DNA of 35,841 bases from Deltaproteobacteria bacterium GWA2_45_12 (GCA_001797365.1 MGPH01000045.1:1-35841), one strand, 5' to 3'. Shown: positions 4,725 through 35,349, counted from the stretch's first letter. The notes: generated from the sequence alone by a model not told the origin. Translations and numbers: made by a program.

Positions 4725-5588
4725 ATGACCTATGCCGAAGCGGCGCTTTTAGGTTTTGTGCAAGGGGCTACCGAATTTTTGCCGGTTTCAAGTTCGGCTC
4801 ATTTGGTGTTAGCCCCTTGGTTCTTTCGTTTTGAAGATCCCGGCCTTACCTTTGATGTTGCCCTCCACTTTGGGACTTTACTCGCCATTGTTGGTTATTT
4901 TTGGAAGGATTGGTTTCATATCCTTTCGGGATCTTTTCACCTTATCGCTCGTTGCTCGTCGCTCGTCGCTCGAGGGAAGGGTGTTGCTCATGAGCTCGAG
5001 GGCTCGCGAACCCGTATTACGAGCGACGAGTCCGCGAGCTTCAATCTTTTTCTCTGGATCATCATCGGCACCATCCCGGCCATGATTGCCGGATTACTCT
5101 TAGATGAGTGGGCAGAAACCACCTTTAGAAATCCCCTGCTTATTGCCTTTAATATGGCGGCGATGGGTTTTGTGTTGATGGTAGCTGGCAGAAAAGGAAA
5201 GGGACATCGCCATATAAATCATGTGAATATGAAAGATGGTTTATGGATTGGTTTATCCCAATGCCTGGCTTTGGTGCCGGGGGTTTCGCGGTCGGGGGTG
5301 ACGATTACGGCTGGTTTGTTCCGCCACATGGACCGTGTCACCGCAGCGCGTTTTTCATTTTTATTGGCAACCCCGATTACTTTTGGGGCGTGCTTACTCA
5401 AACTGCCTGATTTTATTGATCAGGGAGTTTCGCCCCCTGCCTTGGTGGGGATGGGTGTTTCAGCCCTCACAGGTTTTTTGTGCATTAAATATCTTCTCCG
5501 CTTTGTTCAAAAATATTCCTTCGACATTTTTGCCTATTACCGATTCGTGGTGGCCTTGGTGATTTTAGGGGTTTGGTTTATTCAATGA
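4725..5588 (+). CDS. uppP: Undecaprenyl-diphosphatase
   Basis: An integral membrane protein of the UppP/BacA family that dephosphorylates undecaprenyl pyrophosphate to recycle the lipid carrier of peptidoglycan and other envelope polymers. Motif 1 is QGATEFLPVSSSAHL at residues 13-27, carrying the catalytic Glu and Ser residues. Motif 2 is PGVSRSG at 185-191. Several hydrophobic helices are apparent. The protein is 287 residues against about 265-275 usually. The excess is a hydrophilic stretch at residues about 74-106, encoded by a palindromic repeat between the early helices, while both catalytic motifs are intact. It starts 9 nt after pnp with an AAGGA site, and it converges on a toxin gene 16 nt downstream. 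The identity is secure; whether the insertion affects activity is unknown. Confidence 0.96.
   Translation: MTYAEAALLGFVQGATEFLPVSSSAHLVLAPWFFRFEDPGLTFDVALHFGTLLAIVGYFWKDWFHILSGSFHLIARCSSLVARGKGVAHELEGSRTRITSDESASFNLFLWIIIGTIPAMIAGLLLDEWAETTFRNPLLIAFNMAAMGFVLMVAGRKGKGHRHINHVNMKDGLWIGLSQCLALVPGVSRSGVTITAGLFRHMDRVTAARFSFLLATPITFGACLLKLPDFIDQGVSPPALVGMGVSALTGFLCIKYLLRFVQKYSFDIFAYYRFVVALVILGVWFIQ
4945..5040. repeat. Palindromic/tandem CTCG-rich repeat inside uppP
   Basis: Tandem copies of a GCTCGT-type unit (4946-4975) are followed by an inverted copy: CTCGTCGCTCGT at 4955-4966 is the exact reverse complement of 5019-5030. A second GCTCGAG lies at 4994-5000. The base composition differs sharply from the flanking gene. 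The block keeps the uppP frame open and adds roughly 30 hydrophilic residues in an inter-helix loop. It looks like an inserted dispersed element. Confidence 0.75.
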
Positions 5589-11137: not shown

Positions 11138-11917
11138 TTGGTTACCCATCTCGACAAAATCATCGAATACAAAAAAGAAGAGTTGGCATTAAATAAACGC
11201 CAAATTTCTTTGGCTGATATCCAGAAACGGGCTGTGGATGCTGCGCCGGCACGCCCGTTTATGGGAACTTTTGCCAACTATGATGCCATCAACATCATTG
11301 CCGAAATCAAAAAAGCATCTCCGTCAGCGGGGATTATTTGTGCTGATTTCAAACCCGTGGATATAGCTCTTTCTTATGAAGAAGGCGGAGCGAAAGCCCT
11401 TTCAGTTTTAACCGATGAATTTTTTTTTCAGGGTTCCTTAAATTATTTGGGAGCCATCAAAAAACACGTCAAACTTCCCTGTTTGCGCAAGGATTTTACC
11501 ATTCATGAATACCATCTTTATCAGGCCCGCGCTTATGATGCGGACGCCGTGTTGCTGATTGCTGCTTGTTTGGATGACGCCCAGCTTAAGGATTATCAGG
11601 CCCTTGCTTTTGAACTGGGCATGGCCTGTTTAGTTGAAGTCCACGATGGCAAAGAATTGGAACGGGTTTTAAAAATAAAGCCGAAGATAGTTGGGGTGAA
11701 CAACCGGAATTTAAAAACTTTTGATGTATCTTTAAAAACTTCTCTCGATCTTATTCCGTCGATTCCAAAAGGGGTAGTGGCTATCAGTGAATCCGGGCTC
11801 AAAACGCGGGAAGATCTTGTCAAACTTAAGGAAGCGGGTTATGCCGGTTTTTTAATTGGGGAAATGTTGATGAGGGAAGGGAATGTGGTAAAGAAATTGA
11901 AGGAATTGATTCGGTAG
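11138..11917 (+). CDS. trpC: Indole-3-glycerol phosphate synthase
   Basis: A 259-residue TIM-barrel enzyme that closes the indole ring from CdRP, the fourth step of tryptophan synthesis. Signatures are IIAEIKKASPSAG (phosphate/catalytic Lys), SVLTDEFFFQGS, PCLRKDFTIHEYHLYQARAYDADAVL shortened here to its core PCLRKDF, VEVHDGKEL, GVNNRNLKTF and ISESGL. The start is TTG at 11138, with AGGAG 5 nt upstream; no in-frame ATG fits. It is separate from trpF, unlike the enterobacterial fusion. Its TAG stop lies inside the foot of a REP-like element: bases 11914-11917 read GTAG, and the element fills the space to trpF. Confidence 0.96.
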   Translation: MVTHLDKIIEYKKEELALNKRQISLADIQKRAVDAAPARPFMGTFANYDAINIIAEIKKASPSAGIICADFKPVDIALSYEEGGAKALSVLTDEFFFQGSLNYLGAIKKHVKLPCLRKDFTIHEYHLYQARAYDADAVLLIAACLDDAQLKDYQALAFELGMACLVEVHDGKELERVLKIKPKIVGVNNRNLKTFDVSLKTSLDLIPSIPKGVVAISESGLKTREDLVKLKEAGYAGFLIGEMLMREGNVVKKLKELIR

Positions 11918-11978
11918 GGGCGCCCCTTGGTGCGCCCCACACGCCGGCAGAGAAGGGCGCAGCAAGCGGCGCCCGTAC
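11914..11978. repeat. REP/BIME-like palindromic element A (trpC-trpF)
   Basis: It begins with GTAG, followed by hairpin GGGGCGC...GCGCCCC, a short linker, and a second hairpin GGGCGC...GCGCCC ending in GTAC. The TAG stop of trpC is part of the foot, and trpF starts 6 nt after the element. The two-hairpin form with opposed feet resembles a BIME. Confidence 0.8.
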
Positions 11979-11984
11979 AAACAT

Positions 11985-12626
11985 ATGTCAGTTCTTGTTA
12001 AAATCTGCGGTTTGACCAATTTAGACGATGCCATGGATGCCCTTGATTGCGGAGCTGATTTGTTGGGATTTAATTTTTATCCGGATTCACCGCGTTATAT
12101 CGACCCCGAACTTGCTTTTGATATTTTTGAGGAAATTCCGGGGAATGTGGAAAAGGTGGGTATTTTCGTTAATCGCGATCTTAAAGAAGTCTTGGATATT
12201 GCTGTTGAGTTCAATCTTGATTTCCTGCAATTTCACGGTGATGAAACGCCGGAATACTGCAATCAGGTGGGGCGTCCGTGGTTTAAGGCATTTAGATTGA
12301 AGGCGGAACAGGATTTGATTGAAATCCCCAAGTATGAAAGCCGGTGGCTTTTAGTGGATGCCCATGTTGAAAAAGCGTTTGGAGGAACCGGAGTTATTTC
12401 TGACTGGCATTTGGCGCGCGAGGCTAAAAAATTTGGTCAACTTTTTTTATCCGGTGGGTTAAAGCCTGATAATATTGAAATGGCCCTAGACGCTGTCAAA
12501 CCCTATGCTGTCGATGTAGCTAGTGGAGTGGAAGAATCTCCGGGGATCAAAGATAAACAGAAAATGGAAGAGTTTGTGGCCCGTGTAAGAGCGTGGTCGA
12601 CGAAGAATTGTAAGGGTAATCCGTAA
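11985..12626 (+). CDS. trpF: Phosphoribosylanthranilate isomerase
   Basis: A 213-residue TIM-barrel isomerase converting PRA to CdRP, the third step of tryptophan synthesis. Visible are VKICGLT (5-11, catalytic Cys8), LGFNFYPDSPRYI, GIFVN, LDFLQFHGDE, the catalytic-Asp strand LLVDAH, GGTG, and FLSGGLKPDN near the C-terminus. There is no Shine-Dalgarno: the ATG is 6 nt after a REP-like element. The TAA stop at 12624-12626 is part of the GTAAGGG foot of the next element, and the last residues (KNCKGNP) come from a region containing a second GTAAGGG at 12610, so the C-terminus appears to have been rewritten by repeat sequence. Confidence 0.95.
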   Translation: MSVLVKICGLTNLDDAMDALDCGADLLGFNFYPDSPRYIDPELAFDIFEEIPGNVEKVGIFVNRDLKEVLDIAVEFNLDFLQFHGDETPEYCNQVGRPWFKAFRLKAEQDLIEIPKYESRWLLVDAHVEKAFGGTGVISDWHLAREAKKFGQLFLSGGLKPDNIEMALDAVKPYAVDVASGVEESPGIKDKQKMEEFVARVRAWSTKNCKGNP

Positions 12627-12650
12627 GGGCAATTCATGAATTGCCCCTAC
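12623..12650. repeat. REP-like palindrome B (trpF-trpB)
   Basis: Foot GTAA, perfect 9-nt arms GGGCAATTC (12627-12635) and GAATTGCCC (12638-12646), then CCTAC. A single-hairpin member. It carries the trpF stop in its foot and lies 7 nt before the trpB ATG. Confidence 0.8.
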
Positions 12651-12657
12651 CTGTAAC

Positions 12658-13851
12658 ATGAAACACAATCCCGACAAATCAGGGCATTTTGGAATTTTTG
12701 GCGGAAAATACGTCTCTGAAACACTCATGCCCGCCCTCGATGAATTGGAAAAGGCCTACAAGCTTATTGCCAAGACGCCTGCCTTTAAAAAAGAGTTTGC
12801 AACTTATGCCAAGCATTACATTGGGCGTCCCACGCCTTTGTATTTTGCCCAAAAACTCACTGAAAAATTGGGTGGGGCCAAAATTTTCTTTAAACGTGAA
12901 GATCTGTGTCATACAGGCGCGCACAAGGTGAACAACACCTTGGGGCAGTGCTTATTGGCCAAAAAAATGGGCAAACCACGCGTGATTGCCGAAACAGGGG
13001 CCGGTCAACATGGGGTGGCAACCGCAACCATGTGTGCTCTTTTGGATCTTCAATGTGAAGTTTATATGGGTGAGGAAGATGTTCATCGCCAGTCGCTCAA
13101 TGTTTTTCGGATGAAGCTTTTAGGGGCCCAGGTTCATCCCGTGACTTCAGGAACTCAAACCTTAAAAGATGCCATGAACGAGGCCCTTCGTGACTGGGTA
13201 AGCCATGTAAGAAATACCTTCTATTGTATTGGCACTGTTGCAGGCCCGCATCCGTATCCAACAATTGTGCGCGATTTTCAGTCGATTATCGGACATGAAA
13301 CCAAAAAACAAATTAAAGAATATGGTTACGCAAAACCCGACTATGTGGTGGCCTGTATCGGGGGGGGCTCCAATGCGATGGGACTTTTTTATCCCTACTA
13401 TAAAGAGGCCTCTGTCAAAATGATCGGAGTGGAAGCCGCAGGTTCTGGAATCCGCAGTGGCAAGCATGCCGCTTCCATTTCAGCAGGCAGCGTGGGTGTT
13501 TTGCATGGGAATAAAACCTATTTGTTGCAAGATAAACAGGGACAGATTCTGCCCACTCATTCCATTTCAGCAGGGCTTGATTATCCGGGTGTTGGGCCAG
13601 AACACGCTTTTTTCCATGAGTCAGGTCGGTGCCGCTATGTTTCAGTGACTGATGACCAGGCCATGGAGGGATTTACCTTATTAAGCAGAACGGAAGGGAT
13701 TATTCCTGCTCTTGAATCGGCCCATGCTGTGGGATATTTGCCACAATTTATTCCCCAGACAAAAAAAGAAGAGATTGTGGTGGTGAATCTTTCAGGACGC
13801 GGCGATAAAGATATGGGGACTGTGGCCAAGGTGATGGGGGTGAAATTGTAG
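12658..13851 (+). CDS. trpB: Tryptophan synthase beta chain
   Basis: A 397-residue PLP enzyme, full length, that condenses indole and serine to tryptophan. The PLP lysine is Lys90 in [21 protein letters not shown] is the substrate loop with the catalytic Glu, GGGSNAMG (about 235-242) binds the PLP phosphate, and the C-terminus carries LSGRGDKDM. It is a typical TrpB1 that would form the alpha2beta2 complex with the neighbouring TrpA. The ATG follows a REP-like palindrome with no Shine-Dalgarno. The TAG stop lies within the foot (GTAGGGG) of the next element. Confidence 0.98.
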
Positions 13852-13902
13852 GGGCGGGTCTGTGGCCCGCCCAAAAAGGGCAGGTTACAAACCTGCCCGT
13901 AC
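13848..13902. repeat. REP/BIME-like element C (trpB-trpA)
   Basis: GTAG foot, then hairpin GGGCGGG (13852-13858)/CCCGCCC (13866-13872), then hairpin GGGCAGGTT (13878-13886)/AACCTGCCC (13890-13898), ending in GTAC. It contains the trpB stop and ends 9 nt before trpA. Confidence 0.82.
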
Positions 13903-13911
13903 CAATCCATT

Positions 13912-14706
13912 ATGTCTCGAATCTCAAAAACATTCCGCCAATTAAAAAAAGAAGGACGAAAAGCCCTGATACCTTTCATTACGGCGGGAGATCCTTCTTT
14001 AAAAGAAACGGAGAAACTCATCTTTACCCTTGAAAAAGCCGGCGTGGATATTATCGAGCTGGGAGTTCCATTTTCTGATCCCATGGCTGACGGGGCTGTC
14101 ATTCAGGCGGCTTCAGAGCGCGCCTTGAAAAAGAAAGTCACTTTATCCGATATTTTAAATTTGGTGGCCCGTGTTCGTAAAAAGACCCAGATTCCTATCT
14201 TGCTCATGGGTTACTACAATCCCATTTTTGTTATGGGGGAAGAGACATTTGCCCAAAAAGCGGCCCAATCGGGTGTGGATGCCCTTCTTATTGTGGATTG
14301 TCCCCCTGAAGAATCGCATAGCCTTCGAAAGGCTTTAAGAATTCATTCTATTGATTTGGTTTATTTGTTGGCTCCCACCTCGGATGAAAAACGTATCAAG
14401 CTCGCCACTCAAAATGCCTCCGGATTCATTTATTATGTTTCATTAACCGGAGTGACGGGGGCCAAACTTCAAGTTACCGATGAAATAAAAGCCCAGGTAG
14501 ACAAGATTCGGGCTGTGAAGAAAATTCCTGTGTGTGTAGGTTTTGGGATTTCAACTCCCAATCAGGCAGCTCAAATTGCCCCCTTAGCCGATGGTGTTGT
14601 GATAGGTTCCGTCTTGGTGAATCTTATTTTTCACAAGACTCATGGCTCTCAAACCAACCATACCAAGGTCCATCAGTTTATATCAAAGTTTAGACACTTA
14701 TTTTAA
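13912..14706 (+). CDS. trpA: Tryptophan synthase alpha chain
   Basis: A 264-residue TIM barrel that cleaves indole-3-glycerol phosphate and passes indole to TrpB. The N-terminal helix is followed by ALIPFITAGDPS. Catalytic Glu49 lies in IIELGVPFSDPMADG and Asp60 in the same motif. LLMGYYNPI, YVSLTGVTGA and VGFGIS are the conserved loops that bind the substrate phosphate. The last gene of the trp operon. Its start has no Shine-Dalgarno and follows the REP-like element C. The 180-nt gap downstream shows no clear terminator. Confidence 0.97.
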   Translation: MSRISKTFRQLKKEGRKALIPFITAGDPSLKETEKLIFTLEKAGVDIIELGVPFSDPMADGAVIQAASERALKKKVTLSDILNLVARVRKKTQIPILLMGYYNPIFVMGEETFAQKAAQSGVDALLIVDCPPEESHSLRKALRIHSIDLVYLLAPTSDEKRIKLATQNASGFIYYVSLTGVTGAKLQVTDEIKAQVDKIRAVKKIPVCVGFGISTPNQAAQIAPLADGVVIGSVLVNLIFHKTHGSQTNHTKVHQFISKFRHLF

Positions 14707-14834
14707 ATAGCCAAAAAACAGACATCATTAATTTAAATAAAAACATAGTAATTACAGTAAGTTAATAAGTTGCTGATTACTTCCTCCTGTTTTTCTGTCA
14801 AAATTTCTTAAATCAAGCTTTTCATCTTCAAAAT

Positions 14835-14857
14835 AACCGTGTTAAAATAACACAGTT
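14835..14857. promoter_or_regulatory. Inverted repeat upstream of the NtrC-family gene
   Basis: GTGTTA (14839-14844) and TAACAC (14848-14853) are perfect arms around AAA; flanking AAC and GTT extend the symmetry with one mismatch. It lies about 30 nt before the regulator's start in an AT-rich gap (14707-14886) that holds no gene. It is a candidate operator; I found no GG/GC-type sigma-54 promoter. Confidence 0.4.
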
Positions 14858-14886
14858 TTCATTTAAAAATTGGGTCATTAAGAAAC

Positions 14887-16242
14887 ATGCAAGAAAAAGA
14901 AGTCATTTTGCTGGTCGAGCCTAATCCTTTTGAGTCCCAACTCATTGTTGAGGTTCTTAAGAGGGAGGGCTTTGATTGTGTTGATTGGTATCCCAAATTT
15001 GAGGAAGTACCTAACCCAACAGACTATTCCGTTGTTCTTATGGGGTTCCATGCGGCCAATATCAATGGTCGTGACATGCTTTCCGAACTTTTGATTCAAA
15101 AGCCTGAAATGCCCGTCATCGTTCTTATTGACACCCACGTGGTGGATCAAGCTCTTTGGGCCATGAAATGTGGTGCTTTTGATGTTTTAGAAAAACCCAT
15201 CCATCCTGAACGTCTTTTATTGTTGGTCCATAAAAGTATGGAATTTGGATTTGTACGTACAGAAATTGTCAGGCTTCATCAACAGGCGCCTCAAGGAGAT
15301 ATTTATTATGGCATGGTGGGGCGGTCGATGGACATGAAGCGTATTTTTGATCTGATTGAACGTATCAAGGATAGTTCGGTCAATGTTCTCATTACCGGTC
15401 CTAGTGGGTCGGGAAAGGAAATGGTGGCTCGTGCGTTACATGCCACTTCCAGCCGTGCCAATAAAAAATTTGTCGCCATTAATTGTTCAGCGATTCCGGA
15501 TGCCCTTTTGGAAGGGGAATTGTTTGGTTATAAAAAAGGGGCTTTCACCGATGCTCGCACCGATAAAATCGGGCTTTTCCAGGAAGCTGACAATGGAACT
15601 ATTTTCTTAGATGAAATTGGGGATATGCCCATTAATGTTCAGCCAAAAATTTTGAGAGCCTTGCAGGAAAAGGAAATAAGACCCTTGGGCTCCTTAAATA
15701 GCGTCAAAGTCAATGTTCGTATTATTGCTGCCACAAATCAGAACCTGGAAGAAAAAATACAGCAGAAGCAGTTTCGAGAGGATCTTTATTATCGCCTGAA
15801 TGCCATGCAGTTTGAAATTGCTCCATTAAAAAACAGGGAGGAAGATATTCCCCTGCTTATCGATCATTTTTTGGCAAGAATGAAAAAAACACACGCTCAT
15901 GCAATCAAGGGAGTTTCCCAAAAAGCCATGAAAATACTCATCGATTATTCATGGCCGGGCAATGTGCGTGAATTGGAAAATGTGATTGAACGTGCCACCC
16001 TGTTTTCAAAAAATGAATGGATTCTTCCCGAAGATCTTCTTTTCTCCAAGGAAGAGGATGATGTGCTCCCCATGTCTGAGTGGGCTCGTCGTAAAAAGCC
16101 TTTGGCCGATATTGAAAAAGAATACATTCTTGAAGTCCTGCAGCACGTTTCCGGAAACCGCTCAGAAACGGCCAATATTTTGGGGATAGGGCGGAAGACC
16201 TTGTACAATAAACTGGCTAAATATGGCGTTGGGAATTCCTGA
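14887..16242 (+). CDS. NtrC-family sigma-54 activator with degenerate receiver
   Basis: A 451-residue protein in the order receiver (1-120), AAA+ (about 141-375), Fis-type HTH (about 412-448). The AAA+ domain has Walker A GPSGSGKE (171-178), Walker B GTIFLDEIGD (237-246), the sigma-54 contact loop as GAFTDA (218-223, consensus GAFTGA), and the arginine-finger region REDLYYRLN. The HTH reads NRSETANILGIGRKTLYNKL. The receiver keeps Lys103 but has Glu-Pro at 11-12 in place of the acidic pair, Gly53 at the phosphoacceptor Asp position and Ile where Thr/Ser is usual, so it should not be phosphorylated in the normal way. It is the first gene of an operon with a receiver/Hpt-like protein (9-nt gap) and PtsP. 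Signal input is therefore unclear. Confidence 0.9.
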   Translation: MQEKEVILLVEPNPFESQLIVEVLKREGFDCVDWYPKFEEVPNPTDYSVVLMGFHAANINGRDMLSELLIQKPEMPVIVLIDTHVVDQALWAMKCGAFDVLEKPIHPERLLLLVHKSMEFGFVRTEIVRLHQQAPQGDIYYGMVGRSMDMKRIFDLIERIKDSSVNVLITGPSGSGKEMVARALHATSSRANKKFVAINCSAIPDALLEGELFGYKKGAFTDARTDKIGLFQEADNGTIFLDEIGDMPINVQPKILRALQEKEIRPLGSLNSVKVNVRIIAATNQNLEEKIQQKQFREDLYYRLNAMQFEIAPLKNREEDIPLLIDHFLARMKKTHAHAIKGVSQKAMKILIDYSWPGNVRELENVIERATLFSKNEWILPEDLLFSKEEDDVLPMSEWARRKKPLADIEKEYILEVLQHVSGNRSETANILGIGRKTLYNKLAKYGVGNS

Positions 16243-16251
16243 AAAAATTCT

Positions 16252-16956
16252 ATGCAAGTCTGGATTGTTGATGATGATGCAGGTTTTGCCTACCAACTAA
16301 AGCATGCGATAGGGGCCCATACACTTTTTCAGAAAAAAGACTCTTCTTCAAAAATATCTGTTTATCTTTCAGGTTCTGAATTTTTAGAAGCGCTTTCCAA
16401 GAAGGATGCCGGGCCCGATCTTGTTTTTTTGGATTGTTATCTGGGAAATGATTTTGGACCCGAAATTTATTTGTCTTTGGATGCCCCAACCCGGGAAAAA
16501 GTCTGTTTTTGTTCGTCGATGAGCTACGGTTTGTTCCAGGAATTTTTCACTTCACAAAATGAGGCTGTTCCGCCCTTTGTCCCCAAACGTTTTGCGGAGC
16601 AAAAGTGGAAAGAAATTGTGGAGGCTGCTTCTAACAAGGGGAAGGCCGTTCCCCAAAAAAACGGACCCAGTCCAAAAAGCCCCTTTTATTTGAAAACGGT
16701 TGCCGATATTGGTCGTTTAGTGGAGGGGATTGAAAAAACTTATTATGGTGAAAATAAAAATGAAAATTCTCCCGATATTCTTTCCCAGGTACAAAGTATT
16801 CGTCTGAAAGCATCCACTTTTGGGGTGGACGTGGTGTTGCCTGCGTGTGATCGCCTGCTTGCTTATCTTGACCCGGCAAAGAAAACGGGGGCCATGAGGC
16901 TTAAAAAAGAGATCCGCGACTTTATTTCAAGTATAAAAAAAGCAGTCGAATCATGA
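16252..16956 (+). CDS. Response-regulator receiver with C-terminal Hpt-like domain
   Basis: A 234-residue protein. Residues 1-120 form a receiver: WIVDDD with the acidic pair (Asp7, Asp8), phosphoacceptor Asp61 in LVFLDCYLG, and Lys112 in FVPKRF. After a Lys/Pro-rich linker, residues about 175-232 are helical and read like an Hpt domain (SIRLKASTFG, then LPACDRLLAYL), but the phosphorylatable His and the following Gly of HxxKG are replaced (Ile and Ala). It has no DNA-binding or enzymatic output domain. It may dock with other phosphotransfer proteins, perhaps its neighbours. The start ATG has no Shine-Dalgarno and lies 9 nt after the preceding stop. The Hpt assignment is tentative. Confidence 0.75.
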   Translation: MQVWIVDDDAGFAYQLKHAIGAHTLFQKKDSSSKISVYLSGSEFLEALSKKDAGPDLVFLDCYLGNDFGPEIYLSLDAPTREKVCFCSSMSYGLFQEFFTSQNEAVPPFVPKRFAEQKWKEIVEAASNKGKAVPQKNGPSPKSPFYLKTVADIGRLVEGIEKTYYGENKNENSPDILSQVQSIRLKASTFGVDVVLPACDRLLAYLDPAKKTGAMRLKKEIRDFISSIKKAVES

Positions 16957-16984
16957 ACCAATATAAGGTACATTCAATAAACCA

Positions 16985-19360
16985 ATGAAGATTCGGCCTG
17001 CTATTTATGATTTTACTTCCACCGATGTAATGACTGACATTCTTGAATTGGGGCATTTGTGCCATGGCAAAGAGGATGTCAAAAAAGTTCTGGATATGCT
17101 TGTTGAGAAAATTGCCCGTATCATGCAGGTGGATGTTTGCTCTCTTTATCTTTTAGACCCTCATAATAAAATTTTGGAATTAAAAGCGACGAAGGGGTTG
17201 AACCAATTAGCCATTGGTGTGGTTAAAATGAAGGTGGGTGAGGGCTTGGTGGGAAAAACTCTTGAATGGATGAAGCCCGTTTCCATGTCTACAGGCAAGC
17301 GCAGTAAGCAATTCAAATATTTCCCTGAAACAGGGGAAGAAAAGTTTTCATCCTTTTTGTCAGTGCCGCTTATTTATAATCGTCAACCCATTGGTGTCTT
17401 GGTGGTTCAAAATGAAAAGAAGGTCAAGTTTTCTTCCCAGGCCGCCCATCTATTGATGACGTTGGCCATTCCCGCTATCAGCGTTGTCGAAAAAGCAAAA
17501 CTTCTCGATTCTTTCGTGAAAATTTCCTCCCGATTGGATTTTCAAACACAAGGGAATGAAGAGCTGCAGCCCAAAAAGACCGAAGGCATGGTCCATGTGG
17601 GGATTGGTGCGGCTCCCGGCATTGCCATTGGCAAGATCAAGATTGTGGGGAATCACCACCAGGATTTAAAACCGATAACCAAGGAAGCTCCCATCCACAA
17701 GGATGTTGAAAAAATGCGTGTCTTGGAAGCTTTTCGTTGGGTCCAGGAAGAAATTTTGGATGTCCAAAAAAAGGCCGAGAAAAAATTCGGCATGGAAGAA
17801 CTTTCCATTTTTGATGCCTATAGCATGGTGCTCGAAAGCGAGCCTTTTAAGGAAGAAATCCTGACTGAAATTGACAAGGGGAAATCGGCCTTGATGGCTG
17901 TGGAAAATGTGGTTGGCCGTTATGCCGAAGAGCTTTCCCATGCGGATGACGAATATATTCGTGAACGTGTTTTTGATATTCATGATGTGGGAAGAAAAAT
18001 CATCGATCGCCTTCTTTATGGAAGTGAAGTGCCTCGCTCGGCTTTTCATCTTACCCAGGAGGCTATTTTGATTTCAGATTCATGGAGTGTCTCCGATTTT
18101 GTTGAGCTTGATCCTGAAAAAACAAAGGGCATTCTTTCTCCCGTGGGAGGGGCCTCTTCCCATATTGCCATTCTGGCTGAGTCCATGGGCATTCCCGCTG
18201 TTTTGGGGTTGTCTTCTTTTGCTGATTTTATTCATGAAGATGATGAAGTGGTTATGGATGGGACTTCAGGGGTTGTGGTGCTCAACCCCACCAATGAAGT
18301 GCGTGAGATGTATCGCAAAGAAAGCACCAAAGAAGCCCAGGCCCAGGAAATTTACAGCCAGTATGCCCACAAACAAGCTTCTCCACGCGGTGGGAAAAGA
18401 ATTTTTATTGGTGCCAACATGGGTATGGCGGCCAATATGGGGAATGCCCTTGAGCAAGGGGCCGAACATATTGGGCTTTATCGTACGGAGATGCCGTTTT
18501 TGATCCGGCGTAATTTGCCTACGGAGGAAGAGCAGTTTCTTTTGTATAGCAAAGTGCTTTCCACCATGGGGGGAAAACCGGTGACAATTCGTATTCTGGA
18601 TATTGGTGGTGATAAATATGTTCCGTATTTAAATCTTCCCAAAGAGACCAACCCTTTTTTGGGATGGCGTTCCATCCGTATTTTGCTTGAACGCGAAGAC
18701 CTGTTCCGTATTCAATTACGCGCTTTGCTTCGTGCTTCCGTTAAGGGGAAGCTGCGCCTGCTTTTCCCCATGGTGACTTCGATGGAAGAAATTCTTAAGG
18801 TCAAAGAGATACTTTCGAACATCAAAAAAGAGCTTAAATCAAAAAATATTGCTTATGCTCCCAATATTCCCCTGGGGATCATGATTGAAGTGCCTTCTGC
18901 TGTTGAAATAGCGGACCGTCTTATTCGTGAAGTGAACTTTTTTTCTATTGGGACCAATGATCTGGTTCAATACACGTTGGCTGTTGATCGCAACAATCCC
19001 AAGGTGGCCTTCTTGTACAGTTATCTTCATCCCGCTGTCTTAAGGATGATTTCAAGAACCATTCAGGTCGTGCATAAAGCCAAAAAATCAATCAGTGTGT
19101 GCGGTGAAATGGCGGGTCAGGCTGAAGGAGCGTTGCTCTTGGTGGGGATGGGTATCGATGAACTAAGCATGAGTACCCCCTTAATTCCCAAAATGAAGCA
19201 TCTGATCAATCAAGTGTCATTACCCAAGCTTAAAAAACTGGTACATCAGGTTTTCAAGGCAGATACCACAGCCCAAGTAGAACAAATCATGACCCAGTTT
19301 ATGGTGGAAGAAGGGTTAAACCAGTTTTTGACAACATGCAAAGTGGCAATGACCCCTTAA
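16985..19360 (+). CDS. ptsP: PtsP, GAF-domain phosphoenolpyruvate-protein phosphotransferase (enzyme I Ntr)
   Basis: A 791-residue protein in the PtsP order: GAF domain (about 17-170), swivelling and helical enzyme I N-terminal region (about 203-440), and PEP-binding TIM barrel (about 470-760). The phosphohistidine is His393 in GGASSHIAI. The barrel has LYRTEMPF (Arg500), RILDIGGDK, MIEVPSAV, FFSIGTNDLVQYTLAVDR and the catalytic Cys706 in VCGEMAG. PtsP autophosphorylates from PEP and passes phosphate to an NPr/HPr protein, a regulatory rather than sugar-transport pathway; no NPr or EIIA gene is in the window. It closes an operon with an NtrC-family activator and a receiver/Hpt-like protein, suggesting regulatory coupling. 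Identity is secure; the partners are inferred. Confidence 0.94.
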   Translation: MKIRPAIYDFTSTDVMTDILELGHLCHGKEDVKKVLDMLVEKIARIMQVDVCSLYLLDPHNKILELKATKGLNQLAIGVVKMKVGEGLVGKTLEWMKPVSMSTGKRSKQFKYFPETGEEKFSSFLSVPLIYNRQPIGVLVVQNEKKVKFSSQAAHLLMTLAIPAISVVEKAKLLDSFVKISSRLDFQTQGNEELQPKKTEGMVHVGIGAAPGIAIGKIKIVGNHHQDLKPITKEAPIHKDVEKMRVLEAFRWVQEEILDVQKKAEKKFGMEELSIFDAYSMVLESEPFKEEILTEIDKGKSALMAVENVVGRYAEELSHADDEYIRERVFDIHDVGRKIIDRLLYGSEVPRSAFHLTQEAILISDSWSVSDFVELDPEKTKGILSPVGGASSHIAILAESMGIPAVLGLSSFADFIHEDDEVVMDGTSGVVVLNPTNEVREMYRKESTKEAQAQEIYSQYAHKQASPRGGKRIFIGANMGMAANMGNALEQGAEHIGLYRTEMPFLIRRNLPTEEEQFLLYSKVLSTMGGKPVTIRILDIGGDKYVPYLNLPKETNPFLGWRSIRILLEREDLFRIQLRALLRASVKGKLRLLFPMVTSMEEILKVKEILSNIKKELKSKNIAYAPNIPLGIMIEVPSAVEIADRLIREVNFFSIGTNDLVQYTLAVDRNNPKVAFLYSYLHPAVLRMISRTIQVVHKAKKSISVCGEMAGQAEGALLLVGMGIDELSMSTPLIPKMKHLINQVSLPKLKKLVHQVFKADTTAQVEQIMTQFMVEEGLNQFLTTCKVAMTP

Positions 19361-19417
19361 GCTTGATCAAGAGATCTTAAATAATTATCTTCCAATGACT
19401 TTTCCCCCAGAATTAAT

Positions 19418-19446
19418 TTGATACACCTCTTTCAATCTGCTATTTT
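19418..19446 (+). promoter_or_regulatory. Putative promoter of the gsp operon
   Basis: TTGATA (19418-19423) and TATTTT (19441-19446) lie 17 nt apart. A perfect palindrome AACAATTGTT (19451-19460) falls at the expected transcription start and could be an operator. The predicted leader to gspC is about 70 nt. The 19361-19521 gap also has palindrome CTTGATCAAG at 19362-19371 but no clear terminator. Confidence 0.45.
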
Positions 19447-19521
19447 ACCCAACAATTGTTCAGATTTCATTTTTTCATTCGTCCCGTTAATGCATTTTAA
19501 TTGATGACCTTGTGAAGCAAC

Positions 19522-20466
19522 GTGAGTTTTTATCTCAAAAAGTACATCTGGGTGGCCAGTTTGCTGGCTGTGGTTTTGTGCTCTTATTTTTTGGCCAAAA
19601 TGGTGGCCAATGGGCTTAGTTTTAAATTTGGTGCGTTTATTTCCGGCCCTTTAACGGTGGCTGAGAACCCGCCCATTGTGATCTCTGAAAAAAAGGAAGC
19701 AACGGCTGAAGAACTCAAGCCCATTTTGGATCGCAATATTTTTGATTCCAAAGACACCGGTGTGGACCAAGGTCCGGTTTCAACCGAAACAGTTGAAGAA
19801 GAGGTTGTTGATCTTACCGGGGAAGCGGTGCCCACAAGTTTGGGAATAAAACTTGTTTCCACTTTTTCGGTAGGCAATGGAGAAGATGGCCGGTCATCAT
19901 CTATTATTTCATCGGGCAAGGGTGCAGCCGATGTTTATACGGTGGGGGATGCCAAGAGTTTTGCCCCCGAAACAAAGATTGTGCGCATCCTGTTTAACCG
20001 TGTCGAGTTTAGCAACAAGGGGCGGCTTGAATATGTTGAGTTGGAAGATTTCGCCAAGGGAGTCAAGATGAATGTCCCTCCACCGAGAGACGAAGGTGAG
20101 CCTGAAGGGCCAAAAGAAGATAAGGAAGTCAAAATTGAAAAGAAGGGGGAAAGTAATTTTGTCATTGACCGCTCTGAAATTGAAGATGCCATTAACAACT
20201 TGGACAAGCTTTATACGCAGGTGCGCGCCGTTCCCAATTTCAAGGATGGCAAACCCAATGGCTTGAAACTTTTATCGGTCAGGGCGGGAAGTATTTTTAG
20301 TAAACTTGGCTTGCAACGAGGAGATATCCTGAAAAGTATTAACGGGATGGAAATGGATATAAAAAGAGGTTTGGATATTTTTAACAAGCTAAAAAGTGAA
20401 AATCATATTACAATCGATCTCGAAAGAAGAGATGCGACACAAACTTTTGAATACGAAATCAGGTAA
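19522..20466 (+). CDS. gspC: T2SS protein GspC with PDZ domain
   Basis: A 314-residue inner-membrane T2SS component linking the inner-membrane platform to the secretin. It starts at GTG 19522; an in-frame TGA 9 nt upstream rules out longer versions. A single membrane helix is at about 9-28. The periplasmic homology region begins with LKPILDRNIFDS (about 66-77), the typical GspC motif that contacts GspD. A Lys/Glu-rich linker leads to a PDZ domain (about 240-314) with AGSIFSKLGLQRGDILKSING. It is the first gene of the gsp cluster and ends 4 nt before the chosen gspD start. Confidence 0.92.
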   Translation: MSFYLKKYIWVASLLAVVLCSYFLAKMVANGLSFKFGAFISGPLTVAENPPIVISEKKEATAEELKPILDRNIFDSKDTGVDQGPVSTETVEEEVVDLTGEAVPTSLGIKLVSTFSVGNGEDGRSSSIISSGKGAADVYTVGDAKSFAPETKIVRILFNRVEFSNKGRLEYVELEDFAKGVKMNVPPPRDEGEPEGPKEDKEVKIEKKGESNFVIDRSEIEDAINNLDKLYTQVRAVPNFKDGKPNGLKLLSVRAGSIFSKLGLQRGDILKSINGMEMDIKRGLDIFNKLKSENHITIDLERRDATQTFEYEIR

Positions 20467-20470
20467 AAAC

Positions 20471-22891
20471 ATGTTTCTTCTGGGGGCACGGCATGCCATG
20501 CCCCTCCTGGTATTTATTTTTGCTTCTTTAGCCTTTGCCCAAGAAGCCCCGCCCCCTCTCGAAAACAAAGAAACTCAGGCAGTTCCCAGTGTCGATGCGC
20601 CCCAGGCCGCTTTTGAAAATAAAACTTCTCCTTCAAGCGGCAACCAAACAGCAAAGACAACCGTAGTCGATGAAAAGTTTGGTGTGGCTGAAACGCCAGT
20701 CACTCCTTCCTCAAATCAAGGAACATCTAAAACCTCTTTTTCCGAAGAAGAGGCCACAGGTACCGACGATGAACTTATTTACTTAAATGCCACCGATGTT
20801 GATGTCAAAGACATGATCAAGCAGATTTCAAAGGCTACCGGTTCCAATTTTCTTATTGATGACAAAGTACGCGGCAAGGTCACCATTATTTCAGAAAAAC
20901 CCATGACCAAGGAAATGGCTTATCAGGCGTTTTTATCAGCCTTGGAAGTGATGGGTTATACCACGGTTAAATCACCGGGGGGGCTGATCAAAATTGTTCA
21001 AACCAAAGAGGCTGTCAGCAAGCCGATTGATCTTTACAAGGAAGATTCTCCCAATACCGATGGTTTTATCACCCGCATTATTCAGGTGAAGAATATTTCC
21101 GCCAACGACCTTTCAACGGTTGTCAAAAGCCTGGTCTCAAAAGACGGCAATTTGTTTGCTTATCCACAAACCAATTCTCTTATTTTAACAGACGCGGGGT
21201 CCAATATTGACCGCATCCTCAAAATCATTCGCGAGCTTGACCAAGAAGGTCCCCAAGAGGTTATTGAAATTATTCCCATTGTGAATGCCGATGCCAAAGA
21301 CATCACCGAAAAAGTATTGCAACTTTACGAGGGAGCGGGAGCTCAAACTTCTGGACGTGGTGGAACTGCGGCTCGAAGGGCCAACAGGGGAGCCCCTGAA
21401 TTGGAAGACACTCCATCCATTTCCAAGGTGATTTCCGATGACCGTACAAATTCGATCATTGTCTTGGGAAGCAAACGGTCCATTGTTAAACTACGGGCTC
21501 TTATTGAACGGCTTGATACAGCCATCACCGGCGTTGAGGGGACCATTCATGTTTATTATTTGAAACATGCGACTGCGTCAGAACTTTCTGAAGTTTTATC
21601 CTCGCTTGTGGGAGGGGCCAAAATCAAAAGCTCCAAGGAAAAAGGTGCCGGCGGTGCTGCTGAGGCCAGACAGGGAGCCGTTGAGCTGGAAGGGGGAGTC
21701 AAGGTCACTGCTGATGAAGGAACAAACTCGCTTGTGATCACGGCTTCCCCAAAGGATTATGAAACCCTTATTGAGCGCGTTATTTCAAAACTCGATATTC
21801 CACGCAGGCAGGTTTATCTGGAAGCCGTGATCATGGAGTTGAGGATTGATAAAACCAAAAACATCGGACTTAACGGCAATTTCGGGCTTAATTTTAATGT
21901 GAGCGGGCGTGACATGACGGGGTTTGGTTCCCTACTTCCCACATTTCCTACGGCATTGAACAGCATTGCCACAGCCGCTGGCGGTTTGGCCGGAGGTGGA
22001 TTTTCCGCTGATTCCATCGATTTTACTTTAAGCGACGGAACTTCGCTCTCTATTCCTGCTGTCAGCACCATTCTTCAGGCCCTTCAAACAGACAGCAATG
22101 CCAATGTGCTTTCAACGCCCAGTATTTTAACGTTGGACAACGAAGAAGCCAAAATCCAGGTAGGACAAGAAGTGCCCACACCGGGGCAAAGTTCGATATC
22201 TTCGGGGGTGGCGACAACCAGTGTTACACGTGAGGACACGGGTATTATTCTAAAAGTGACACCGCAAATTTCGGAGAGTTCCACTGTGAGGCTTAAAATC
22301 GAACAAGAAATCACCAATGTTCGTTCCTCCGATCCAGTCTTGGGCCCCACCTTTGACAAAAGTTCAGTGACAACCGTGGTTGTGGCCAATGACAAGCAAA
22401 CCATTGTGATTGGGGGTTTGCTTGAAGACCGCGACACGGCTTCCATCGGCAAGGTGCCCCTTTTGGGGGATGTGCCTATTTTGGGGAATCTTTTTAAAAC
22501 CACGCGCAGGGATCGTAAAAAAGCCGATCTCTTGGTGTTTATTACCCCTTACATCATTAAAGACCGTGCCGATTATCTTGAAATTTTGCAGAAGAAAATA
22601 GAAGAACGGAACATGTTTATTGAACACAATTACGGCAGCTACCAACGCAAACAAATTCGTCAGGCCATTAAAGAACATGCGAAAGATCTTTTGGAATATA
22701 GTACCGCTGTTCGTACTATTTATGATGAGAACCCCAACTCTTCATCAACATCTAAAACACCTTATGTGACTCCCACTACTTCCAATACGTCCACAGGGTA
22801 TGAAACATCGACAAGTACATCTTCTGAGAAGAAAAATGAATCTACTGAAGAGGGATACGTACATCCAACACGTCGGGTTCGTGGCCATTGA
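20471..22891 (+). CDS. gspD: T2SS secretin GspD
   Basis: The outer-membrane secretin of the T2SS, 806 residues from ATG 20471, which has AGG at 7 nt and gives a signal peptide ending LAFAQEA. The frame opens at 20396 and ATG 20432 is an alternative inside gspC. After a Ser/Thr/Pro-rich linker come N0 (about 100-180), then N1, N2 and N3 repeats (FITRIIQVKNISANDLS, IEIIPIVNADAKDITEKV, IHVYYLKHATASELSEVL). The secretin core (about 500-710) has STPSILTLDNEEAKIQVGQE, VTPQIS and the C-terminal VPLLGDVPILGNLFK. It ends in a Ser/Thr-rich tail of about 60 residues, in the place of the pilotin-binding S domain. No pilotin gene is present. Confidence 0.97.
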   Translation: MFLLGARHAMPLLVFIFASLAFAQEAPPPLENKETQAVPSVDAPQAAFENKTSPSSGNQTAKTTVVDEKFGVAETPVTPSSNQGTSKTSFSEEEATGTDDELIYLNATDVDVKDMIKQISKATGSNFLIDDKVRGKVTIISEKPMTKEMAYQAFLSALEVMGYTTVKSPGGLIKIVQTKEAVSKPIDLYKEDSPNTDGFITRIIQVKNISANDLSTVVKSLVSKDGNLFAYPQTNSLILTDAGSNIDRILKIIRELDQEGPQEVIEIIPIVNADAKDITEKVLQLYEGAGAQTSGRGGTAARRANRGAPELEDTPSISKVISDDRTNSIIVLGSKRSIVKLRALIERLDTAITGVEGTIHVYYLKHATASELSEVLSSLVGGAKIKSSKEKGAGGAAEARQGAVELEGGVKVTADEGTNSLVITASPKDYETLIERVISKLDIPRRQVYLEAVIMELRIDKTKNIGLNGNFGLNFNVSGRDMTGFGSLLPTFPTALNSIATAAGGLAGGGFSADSIDFTLSDGTSLSIPAVSTILQALQTDSNANVLSTPSILTLDNEEAKIQVGQEVPTPGQSSISSGVATTSVTREDTGIILKVTPQISESSTVRLKIEQEITNVRSSDPVLGPTFDKSSVTTVVVANDKQTIVIGGLLEDRDTASIGKVPLLGDVPILGNLFKTTRRDRKKADLLVFITPYIIKDRADYLEILQKKIEERNMFIEHNYGSYQRKQIRQAIKEHAKDLLEYSTAVRTIYDENPNSSSTSKTPYVTPTTSNTSTGYETSTSTSSEKKNESTEEGYVHPTRRVRGH

Positions 22892-22903
22892 TGATGTAAT
22901 CTG

Positions 22904-22932
22904 GTAGGGACCCCGTAACGCGGGGTCCCTAC
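22904..22932. repeat. REP-like palindrome E (gspD-gspE)
   Basis: GTAGGGACCCCG (22904-22915) and CGGGGTCCCTAC (22921-22932) are perfect 12-nt arms around TAACG. It shows the same GTAG/CTAC feet as the trp-operon elements, but lies 12 nt after the gspD stop and does not form it. Confidence 0.82.
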
Positions 22933-22971
22933 AAATATAAAACCCTTCTGGCAAATACCCTGACAATCGGT

Positions 22972-22977
22972 TACAAT
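22972..22977 (+). promoter_or_regulatory. -10-like hexamer just upstream of gspE
   Basis: TACAAT ends 8 nt before the gspE ATG, with no Shine-Dalgarno in the gap (TTTCGCCT). No good -35 is seen at 16-18 nt (the best is TGGCAA). If used, the gspE message would be leaderless. Confidence 0.3.
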
Positions 22978-22985
22978 TTTCGCCT

Positions 22986-24695
22986 ATGGATGATCGCAGT
23001 CTTGGTCAAATTCTATTAGAAAATACTCCCCTTACTCCTGAACAGCTTAATGAAGCTCTTATAGTGCACCGTGAAAAGGGGCTTAAAATGGGAGAGGCCC
23101 TTTTACAGCTTCGATTTTTAAGGCCCGAGGATGTTTTAAAAGCCCTTTCATTGCAGGTAGGCATTCCTTTTGTAACCGATATTGTCGCCGAAGATATTCC
23201 TGTTGAACTTGTCAATAAAGTGCCCATTAATTTTGCCAAACGTAATGAGCTCATTCCCCTAAAACGTGAGGAAGGCAGTATTGTTGTGGCCCTGGCAGAC
23301 CCGGTCAATCATGCCGCCCTGGATGATCTGTCCCTTATTTTTGACCAACCCATCAAGCCTGTGATTGCTTCTTCCCAAAAAATCATGGATGCCATCAATG
23401 CCTGTTATAACCGGCAAGTGGGGTCTGATCAGACCGTGATGAGCGACTTGGATGAAGAAAACCTCGATCAGGTGGCGCAAGAACTTGAGGAAGTGCAGGA
23501 CCTTCTTGATGCCGCCGATGAAGCCCCCATTATTCGTTTGGTCAATCAACTTTTATTTCGTTCCGTAAAGCAAAATGCTTCCGATATTCATCTTGAGCCT
23601 TTTGAAAAGGAATTAGTCGTTCGTTTTAGAATCGATGGTGTTTTGTATGATGTGATGCATCCGCCCAAAAAAGCCCAAAACAGTATTTTGTCGCGCATTA
23701 AAATCATGGCCAATCTGAATATTGCCGAAAAAAGACTTCCTCAAGATGGGCGTATTCGTATCAAACTGGCAGGAAAAGACATTGATATCCGCGTTTCAAC
23801 CTTACCCACTTCCTTTGGAGAAAGTGTGGTCATGCGTTTACTTGACAGAAGCAAAGTGCTCTTAAATCTTGATTCCATTGGAATGAAGGGAGGAAATTTA
23901 AAAACCATTCGTGATCTCATTCATAAAAGTCACGGGATCATCCTGGTGACAGGGCCCACGGGTTCCGGTAAAACAACAACCCTTTATGCGGCCCTTACCG
24001 AAATCAATTCTTCCGATGTAAAAATTATTACGGTGGAAGACCCCGTGGAATATCAGATTCCAGGGATCAACCAGACGCAGGTCAATCCAAAAATAAATCT
24101 TACCTTTGCCGCCGGCTTGCGGGCCATTTTGCGCCAGGACCCCGACATTGTGATGATCGGTGAAATTCGTGACAAAGAGACGGCGGAAATCGCCATCCAG
24201 GCTTCCTTGACCGGCCATTTGGTTCTTTCAACCTTGCACACAAATGATTCCGCTTCTGCGGCCACTCGTCTTATCGACATGGGTGTCGAGCCTTTCCTGG
24301 TGGCCAGTTCCCTTGTGGGTGTGGTGGCCCAAAGATTGGTGCGTACCTTGTGTAAAACATGTGCCGAAATTTATGAACCGACGGAAGCTGAATTGGAGCA
24401 GTTGGGGCTTTCACATCAGGTGTTGCAAGGGCATGTTATTTATAAACCCGTGGGTTGTCCGCAATGTTTAAATACGGGCTACAGCGGCCGTACGGCCATT
24501 CATGAAATTTTATTGATCGATGATGAGGTGCGTTCTTCCATCATCAAGTCTGTTGATGCCATCACCATCAAAAAAGTGGCGATGCGAAAGGGGCTGCTTA
24601 CCTTAAGAGAAACAGCAATCAATCTCTTGGTGGAAGGGATGACAAGCATTCAAGAAGTTTTAGCCATTACACAGGAAGATACAGTAAGAGAGTAG
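22986..24695 (+). CDS. gspE: T2SS ATPase GspE
   Basis: The cytoplasmic hexameric ATPase that powers pseudopilus assembly, 569 residues. The N1E-type N-terminal domain (about 1-145) begins with LGQILLENTPLTPEQLNEAL. The N2E and ATPase domains follow, with Walker A GPTGSGKT (323-330), Asp box near IITVEDPVEY (347-356), Walker B RQDPDIVMIGEIRD (383-396) and His box LSTLHTNDS (414-422). A zinc-binding tetracysteine is at Cys456, 459, 491 and 494 (CKTC and CPQC). It contacts GspL and GspF. The ATG lacks a Shine-Dalgarno. The TAG stop is part of the foot of REP-like element D. Confidence 0.98.
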   Translation: MDDRSLGQILLENTPLTPEQLNEALIVHREKGLKMGEALLQLRFLRPEDVLKALSLQVGIPFVTDIVAEDIPVELVNKVPINFAKRNELIPLKREEGSIVVALADPVNHAALDDLSLIFDQPIKPVIASSQKIMDAINACYNRQVGSDQTVMSDLDEENLDQVAQELEEVQDLLDAADEAPIIRLVNQLLFRSVKQNASDIHLEPFEKELVVRFRIDGVLYDVMHPPKKAQNSILSRIKIMANLNIAEKRLPQDGRIRIKLAGKDIDIRVSTLPTSFGESVVMRLLDRSKVLLNLDSIGMKGGNLKTIRDLIHKSHGIILVTGPTGSGKTTTLYAALTEINSSDVKIITVEDPVEYQIPGINQTQVNPKINLTFAAGLRAILRQDPDIVMIGEIRDKETAEIAIQASLTGHLVLSTLHTNDSASAATRLIDMGVEPFLVASSLVGVVAQRLVRTLCKTCAEIYEPTEAELEQLGLSHQVLQGHVIYKPVGCPQCLNTGYSGRTAIHEILLIDDEVRSSIIKSVDAITIKKVAMRKGLLTLRETAINLLVEGMTSIQEVLAITQEDTVRE

Positions 24696-24755
24696 GGGCG
24701 CCGCTTGCCGCGCCCATAATTGGCCCATACAGGGCGCAGCAAGCGGCGCCCCTAC
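24692..24755. repeat. REP/BIME-like element D (gspE-gspF)
   Basis: The outer 16-nt arms are perfect: GTAGGGGCGCCGCTTG at 24692-24707 against CAAGCGGCGCCCCTAC at 24740-24755. Each half also folds alone (GGGCGC...GCGCCC). This is the clearest two-unit BIME-like copy. It contains the gspE stop and ends 7 nt before the gspF ATG. Confidence 0.88.
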
Positions 24756-24762
24756 CTAATCC

Positions 24763-27215: not shown

Positions 27216-27702
27216 AAAAACAGATTTTCGTAATGGTTTCACCCTTCTTGAAATCCTGATTGCCGTTTCCATTTTGGCCACTGCGTTTACGATTTTGCTG
27301 GCATCCCAAGGAAGTAATTTTTTGTCCAGTGAACGGGCTGACTATTTGACCACAGCCACTTTTTTGGCGCGCCAAAAAATGGTGGAACTGGAAATGGATT
27401 TTGAAAAAGACATGGCCCGCGGCAAATTTCCGGATGAAAAAGAGGAAGAAGGGACCTTTGAGGACAAATTTGAAGATTTTCGATGGAAGGTTAAGATTAA
27501 AAAAGTTGAGATTCCCACAGTGATTCCTGAAACCGAGGAAACAAAAAACAATCTTGTAGCAACTTACTTAAAACAAATCACGGATCAGCTTTCAAAAGCT
27601 GTGCGTGAGATCAGCCTGACGGTGTACTGGGGAGATAAAGATAAACCCCTTAAAGATCAGCCGCACATGACGGTGACGACACATATTGTGAATTTAAAAT
27701 GA
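27196..27702 (+). CDS. gspI: T2SS minor pseudopilin GspI
   Basis: 168 residues from ATG 27196, which has GAGGA 8 nt upstream; the frame extends to GTG 27172 but that part lies deep in gspH. The leader MTRWMNRKTDFRNG is cleaved before FTLLEILIAVSILA. ATFLARQKMVELEMDF matches the GspI helix region, and the C-terminal strand ISLTVYWGDKDKPL is typical. GspI is the core of the pseudopilus tip complex with J and K. Its stop overlaps the gspJ start (ATGA). Confidence 0.93.
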   Translation: MTRWMNRKTDFRNGFTLLEILIAVSILATAFTILLASQGSNFLSSERADYLTTATFLARQKMVELEMDFEKDMARGKFPDEKEEEGTFEDKFEDFRWKVKIKKVEIPTVIPETEETKNNLVATYLKQITDQLSKAVREISLTVYWGDKDKPLKDQPHMTVTTHIVNLK

Positions 27703-28439
27703 AATTAACTATTATAAAGTTTGTGTCTGGCCGTTGGGAAATCCCCCTTCGTCCCCCTTTATTAAAGGGGGACGAAGGGGGATTTAGACGAAATGGTTTC
27801 ACACTGATGGAAGTCCTTGTCAGTGTTTCTATTTTGGCAGGGATGAGTCTGCTTATATACAGCACCATGAATCGGTCGCTTAACTCCAAGGAAATAGTGC
27901 AACAAAAAGATGAATTGCTCCATTCCGTTCGTTTGGGAATGGGAAAAATGGCTGAAGACTTAAACCAGGCTTTTTTGGCCCAAAGCTCCATGCATGGACG
28001 TGAAAGTCACTATTTGAGCGGATTTAAAGGGAAGGCAGACGATCTTACTTTTACGACCATGAATCATTTTCATTATGTCAAAGATGCCAAAGACACCGAC
28101 CAGGTACTGGTTCATTATTTTCTTAAAAAAAATGATGCCGGTTTTTTTGATTTGATGCGTTTTGAAAATCCAAGATTGACCGACAAGCTGGACATAGAAG
28201 AAAACGGTTTTGTCCTTATTCCCAATGTGAAGTCGTTGGCCCTTTCCTATTTTGATTCAAATGAGGATGTCTGGAAGGAAGATTGGGAGGCTGACAAATT
28301 AAGCAGTCTGGGCAAATTGCCCCGGGCTGTCAAAATGGAGCTTGTTGTTGTGGAAGGGAATGAAGAAGAAAAGCCACGGGAATATTTTTTTACAACAATG
28401 GCAGGCGTTGAATTGTATCAAAATGCGATCAATCTTTAA
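27699..28439 (+). CDS. gspJ: T2SS minor pseudopilin GspJ with repeat-extended leader
   Basis: 246 residues. The prepilin motif RRNG, cleaved before FTLMEVLVSVSILAGM, follows an unusually long 33-residue leader. Residues 14-29 of that leader are encoded by a 47-nt perfect palindrome; without it the leader would be about 17 residues, a normal length. The mature part has the GspJ-like MAEDLNQAFL and long beta strands. The ATG overlaps the gspI stop by 4 nt, supporting this start. GspJ joins the tip complex. Whether the leader still allows normal peptidase processing is unknown; the cleavage site itself is intact. Confidence 0.92.
   Translation: MKLTIIKFVSGRWEIPLRPPLLKGDEGGFRRNGFTLMEVLVSVSILAGMSLLIYSTMNRSLNSKEIVQQKDELLHSVRLGMGKMAEDLNQAFLAQSSMHGRESHYLSGFKGKADDLTFTTMNHFHYVKDAKDTDQVLVHYFLKKNDAGFFDLMRFENPRLTDKLDIEENGFVLIPNVKSLALSYFDSNEDVWKEDWEADKLSSLGKLPRAVKMELVVVEGNEEEKPREYFFTTMAGVELYQNAINL
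27739..27785. repeat. Perfect 47-nt palindrome inside gspJ
   Basis: Arms of 23 nt (27739-27761 and 27763-27785) are exact reverse complements around one T. They are rich in CCCCC/GGGGG and read through in frame (IPLRPPLLKGDEGG in part). The composition is unlike the flanking gsp genes. It is a dispersed palindromic element, distinct from the GTAG family. Confidence 0.85.
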
Positions 28440-35325: not shown

Positions 35326-35349
35326 GTAGGGACAATCCTGGGATTGTCC
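35326..35349. repeat. REP-like half element F after rlmN
   Basis: GTAG foot with hairpin GGACAATC/GATTGTCC (35330-35337, 35342-35349) around CTGG. It continues into AAATC rather than CTAC, so one foot is missing. Otherwise 35289-35436 contains no gene I can support. Confidence 0.65.

Follow-up and report, generated by a model that had tools for sequence, protein, structure and literature searches.

Insertion sequences of the IS200/IS605 type have hairpin ends and an HUH/Y1 enzyme, and one of them, IS608, inserts 3' of a fixed tetranucleotide that is kept as its left flank. Among the REP sequences associated with RAYT (TnpA-REP) transposases, those of RAYT subclass 2.4 (group 4) have two feet, a GTAG and a CTAC at the ends of the hairpin; the corresponding RAYTs carry NHxH and WQ motifs, a YIxNP-type tyrosine motif and in-frame REPs within the gene, and are scattered over many phyla (PMC6006769). 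Di Nocera et al. (2013, PMC3733652) described palindromic repeats with a GTAG tag, which form dimers and lie mostly downstream of genes, some of them inside genes, and stated that flanking ORFs often take their TAG stop from the GTAG termini. REPINs, described in Pseudomonas together with RAYTs of other groups, are inverted pairs of REPs that move as a unit (Bertels and Rainey 2011, PMC3116915). RAYTs of groups other than group 4 are reported to cleave in vitro at CT/CA next to the REP; in the RAYT literature we found in vitro cleavage preferences of this kind and no rule for the genomic target of insertion.

The window analysed here, a stretch of 35,841 nucleotides from Deltaproteobacteria bacterium GWA2_45_12, contains six elements on the plus strand between 11914 and 35349. 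They had been predicted to be REP/BIME-like palindromes that fill the stop-to-start gaps of the trp and gsp operons, and their positions, feet, hairpins and right ends were verified in the sequence. Three are inverted hairpin pairs of the BIME type on inspection of the sequence. E1 (11914-11978), delimited by folding and by a second copy on contig C64, consists of two inverted REPs with the spacer CCACACGCCGGCAGAGAA; its left foot GTAG holds the trpC stop TAG (11915-11917), its right end is GTAC and the trpF ATG follows at 11985. E3 (13848-13902) likewise has a left foot GTAG, which holds the trpB stop TAG (13849-13851), and a right end GTAC, with the trpA ATG at 13912. E5 (24692-24755), of subfamily A, runs from a left foot GTAG, holding the gspE stop TAG (24693-24695), to a right foot CTAC, and the gspF ATG is at 24763. 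E2 (12623-12650) is a palindromic double-foot REP of 28 nt and subfamily B, in which the left foot GTAA holds the trpF stop TAA (12624-12626), the right foot is CTAC and the trpB ATG is at 12658. Four feet thus are stops, as predicted, and the next ATG follows the end of E1, E2, E3 and E5 after 6, 7, 9 and 7 nt. The fifth element, E4 (22904-22932), is a perfect palindromic double-foot REP of 29 nt and subfamily D in the gspD-gspE gap; it overlaps no stop, starting 12 nt past the gspD TGA and ending 53 nt before the gspE ATG. E6 (35326-35349) is a decayed half copy of subfamily C that has lost its right foot. Gap-filling is limited to four junctions, because E4 lies off any stop and the trpD-trpC junction in the window has no element. 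The identities of the trp and gsp genes at the elements agree with Pfam. Against shuffled controls the folding z-scores are -3.9, -3.7, -5.6, -6.1 and -7.9 for E1 to E5 and a marginal -2.1 for the half copy. The window has 12 copies of the hexamer GTAGGG against 7.7 expected, which is no enrichment of the hexamer by itself; the signal lies in foot, hairpin and position together.

The window holds other repeats besides these. A perfect 23-bp palindrome, AAATCCCCCTTCGTCCCCCTTTA, lies at 27739-27785 in the frame of a pilin-like gsp gene (27699-28439), where it encodes PLRPPLLKGDEGGF; its core, TAAAGGGGGA, is another dispersed repeat, with 66 copies in 1.17 Mb. At 4955-5030 an inverted repeat of CTCGTCGCTCGT lies inside an uppP-like gene (4725-5588); the 1.17 Mb contain 8 copies of this 12-mer, which is absent from the parts of two relatives that were sampled.

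Across the genome, a draft assembly of 68 contigs, the elements occur elsewhere as families. Genome counts refer to 1.17 Mb of 2.46 Mb (48%), with genes predicted by a simple custom script and families detected by scans for a pattern plus a hairpin, with control hexamers. In the first 782 kb, a hairpin of 7 bp or longer follows 122 of 348 GTAGGG and 67 of 322 GTAAGG hexamers, whereas most control hexamers reach 0.7-3%; the scan also gives a raised value for GTACGGG, in line with the elements that end in GTAC. Several subfamilies, A (GGGCGCnGCTTGCnGCGCCC), B (GGGCAATTCATGAATTGCCC), C (GGGACAATCCTAGGATTGTCCC) and D (GGGACCCCG...), coexist in this one genome, and throughout them the foot is a nearly invariant GTA followed by G, A or C. 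Double-foot elements number 124 in 1.17 Mb, 67 of them exactly 28 nt long. The E1 unit recurs at about 40992 on G000:C64, with the two hairpins and the spacer identical and the flanks different; the identity is bounded by GTAG and GTAC, and each copy sits on a TAG stop. These are the traits of the GTAG super-family of REPs and BIMEs, that is, a short palindrome with a foot, present in many copies, mostly extragenic, with dispersed inverted pairs, and the assignment to REP/BIME-like repeats is borne out by the families, the double feet and the recurrence of one BIME unit at two unrelated loci. An Rfam search of the elements gave no match. The core of subfamily A occurs 60 times in this genome and is patchy in its own phylum (9 of 46 genomes), and it is also found in Chloroflexi, Acidiferrales, Armatimonadetes, Geobacter-like and other genomes.

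While 94 of the 124 double-foot elements in the 1.17 Mb lie outside predicted genes, 30 lie inside them; with that many copies inside genes, the suggestion that gene ends are the only tolerated sites does not hold. Some are in apparently conserved enzymes, and the host genes include what we take, from their motifs, to be valyl-tRNA-synthetase-like and phosphoglycerate-mutase-like genes. At G000:C4:32392, C7:3350, C64:50278-51151 and other places double-foot elements lie in frame in genes that look intact, and one gene of 732 codons contains three.

A transposase that would be expected for such elements is present. One complete RAYT-like protein, of 202 aa, is encoded at L330:1366-1974, with the HUH motif NHFH, WQRNYYEHII and YIRTNP, and with an internal in-frame REP pair; it has no Pfam match at E<=1e-5, and its assignment is by these motifs and by homology to a second copy (L030/L318). 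The second copy, of 154 aa, is truncated at the N-terminus, and a REP pair lies immediately upstream of it. In-frame REPs occur inside the RAYT gene in both copies and in nearly all relatives. As to flanking of the HUH transposase gene by the same feet, neither copy is cleanly bracketed by a pair; the complete one has an element about 200 nt upstream. Clean flanking on both sides is seen in Geobacter, where a complete RAYT (L150, a REPtron) carries REP pairs both within the gene and upstream of it, and its own TAG stop is the start of the subfamily A core. In the phylum, three more RAYTs (L328, L331 and L333) end on a REP foot. The Geobacter gene, together with the complete RAYT of the genome itself, speaks for the RAYT-type identity of the elements. 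The traits support a probable assignment of the system to subclass 2.4 (group 4), and the association suggests that the RAYT moves these REPs. Two additional Y1 proteins, L028 and L029, look like members of other subclasses.

The relatives compared here belong to different families within the order and were covered in part; their trp and gsp junctions consist of overlapping genes, gaps of a few nucleotides or unrelated sequence, and the elements are absent from them. The same sequences were thus not found in the same places in distant relatives, and the comparison supports elements that are probably mobile rather than conserved. In one relative, G001 (L054), a CGTC-type repeat (ACGTCATTGC...GAAGCAATCC) begins right after the trpC stop, so that this repeat and the GTAG BIME of the present genome share the trpC-trpF junction.

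The coincidence of elements with stop codons extends well beyond the window. Genes ending on an element-like foot number 66 of 1068 in the 1.17 Mb, while two relatives have 9 of 660 and 2 of 352. The pattern behind this count is loose and lets in a few genes whose hairpin is not clear; 54 of the 66 have a definable element. For elements that lie downstream of a gene on its own strand and have a hairpin of 7 bp or more, uniform random placement of each in its own gap would put 6.0 exactly on the stop; the observed number is 38. The original prediction that insertion favours gene ends thus gains statistical support. GGG follows 37 of 151 TAG stops and 4 of 198 TGA stops, and GTAG is accompanied by a hairpin in 2.8% of coding, 21.5% of intergenic and 40% of stop occurrences. 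The coincidence also holds at foreign loci of subfamily A, where 8 of the 37 elements downstream of a gene are exactly at its stop and none is 1-6 nt off. The genes that precede the elements at stops are unrelated and of many kinds. A further repeat, CCCTTCGACTCCGCTCAGGGACC, adjoins TAG stops followed by GGG at G000:C13:13875 and 15436, C27:33745 and C11:19901.

In the prediction, TAG was also taken to be reused as the stop. Foot and stop do coincide; the stop, however, seems to be the older of the two and to be a docking site rather than something supplied by the element. We regard as the likelier course, short of an established one, that the TAG or TAA predates the element, which docked on a pre-existing GTA(G/A). 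The competing order, in which the element brings its own GTAG as a new stop, truncating the protein slightly, and only in-frame insertions survive, we consider unlikely, albeit the most serious of the alternatives. An element that supplies the stop should leave the old in-frame stop downstream. When element and foot are deleted, 23 of 54 cases show an in-frame stop in the next 12 codons, and chance alone gives 0.41-0.44; the next gene usually starts within about 10-20 nt of the removed element. Directly behind the right foot, remnants of an earlier stop are not enriched. The lack of any displaced stop above chance argues that the stop was there first. Out-of-frame insertions, moreover, should be about twice as common under that order, yet a single gene reads into an element, against the 38 exact stops.

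The bases before the stop point the same way. In element-free genes G occupies the last codon position in 18.7%, against 28.2% one codon earlier; with the element genes included the last-position figure is 24.5%, and two relatives, whose GC content is lower than that of this genome, have no such dip. G before TGA is also low in the same count; this, like the difference in GC, weighs against docking. A shortage of G before the stops of element-free genes is contrary to an element-supplied stop and would arise if G-preceded stops are used as docking sites. We speculate, tentatively and with less assurance than on the order itself, that elements of group-4 RAYTs target GTA(G/A) and dock on G-preceded stops throughout the genome, of which a sizeable share, perhaps a third, has been used in this lineage, hence the G shortage.

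Evidence that bears the other way comes from the stop codons themselves and from protein length. TAG makes up 21.2% of stops here and about 17% in relatives, and the TAG share of element-free genes is close to that of the relatives; this excess favours a stop brought in by the element and argues against pure targeting of existing TAG stops. The GTA of the foot is, in addition, nearly invariant in copies away from stops, which again speaks for the element as the source of the stop. Some proteins, for example C11|17 and C28|34, are shorter than their orthologs, and element-ended proteins are slightly shorter on average, 8 of 21 by at least 3 residues, against 18% of others (p=0.08), in an ortholog comparison of C-terminal length that is weak and split between two relatives. 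If the target were GTA and the fourth base came from the element, the TAG excess and most of this contrary evidence would fit with docking on a stop already in place. At individual loci, and in favour of docking, TrpB has its end at the same position as in two relatives, and GspE at the same position as in G004. The best single case, with a relative that is not close, is C13:38976, where the stop is at the same position in G004, TAA there and TAG here, and the downstream flank AACTACTTATTCAT is conserved. A clean empty site was not found among the relatives compared, which, like the cleavage at CT/CA reported for other RAYT groups, counts against docking; an all-against-all comparison of 80 foreign loci gave no sister pair close enough; sites of insertion within genes lie in variable regions, where alignments to relatives are ambiguous. 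A comparison meant to show missing ribosome-binding sites after elements gave 13 of 48 against 35.5% overall, which is unconvincing as a sign of coupling.

Another possibility is that the hairpins are not mobile repeats at all and instead are selected regulatory structures, such as terminators, attenuators or translation brakes. In E. coli, REPs lying up to 15 nt from a stop have been reported to lower translation (cited in PMC12306157), and the gspE-gspF gap of six relatives holds unrelated, repeat-like and mostly palindromic sequence. In the relatives, however, the trp and gspD-gspE junctions are often without any hairpin, and the variety of the genes followed by elements and the lack of an Rfam match also count against regulation, which we judge improbable. 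Between genomes, hairpins at orthologous junctions correlate weakly (p=0.018 and 0.32). As to the gspE-gspF junction itself (window 24696-24762), the inserts after the gspE stop in G007, G006, G001, G005, G004 and G003 (loci L199, L200, L201, L202, L203 and L204) are unrelated in sequence, which may mark the junction as a hot spot or reflect selection for a hairpin there. Random insertion with survival in gaps and no target sequence, to which the strong under-representation of GTAG hairpins in coding DNA would lend itself, is very improbable, as positions just past the stop should be equally acceptable and only 18 elements start within several bases past it, against the 38 exactly at it.

Taken as a whole, the observations are probably best explained by double-foot REP/BIME elements of a RAYT system of subclass 2.4 (group 4) that dock on GTA(G/A). 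The element would be a short non-autonomous hairpin, or an inverted pair of hairpins, with a GTA(G/A) foot recognised by a single-strand-specific HUH/Y1 transposase. Insertion would most likely proceed as in IS200/IS605, beside a GTA or GTA(G/A) already present in the target, so that the GTA would be of host origin. In a gene-dense genome G-TAG and G-TAA stops would be common, harmless copies of that target, and many elements would therefore start at a stop with the protein left intact. If true, the docking rule would explain how REPs pile up at gene ends without damage to genes and would address how RAYTs choose the positions of REPs. The result is a hairpin right at the stop of up to about 6% of genes (about 1 in 16), including those of the trp and type II secretion operons, and such stop-docked hairpins may alter the translation of neighbouring genes.

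These elements are therefore most like the REPs of subclass 2.4 (PMC6006769), with which they share the GTAG and CTAC at the hairpin ends, the RAYT motifs, the in-frame REPs in the RAYT gene and the scatter over many phyla; they differ in that several subfamilies, GTAA-footed ones included, occur in one genome and in that the tie to stops is quantified. The E1 unit and its C64 copy resemble REPINs (PMC3116915) in that an inverted pair appears to move as a unit, and the foot falls on stops much more often here than in those Pseudomonas repeats. The likeness to IS608 lies in the hairpin ends and the HUH/Y1 enzyme, while the present elements are tiny and non-autonomous, with a target rule that we infer from their positions. 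With the GTAG palindromic repeats they share tag, dimers and location. The part of that account considered here (PMC3733652) contains no test of whether stop or element came first; the stop coincidence is already published, and what is new is the evidence on order, which leans towards the stop having come before the element.
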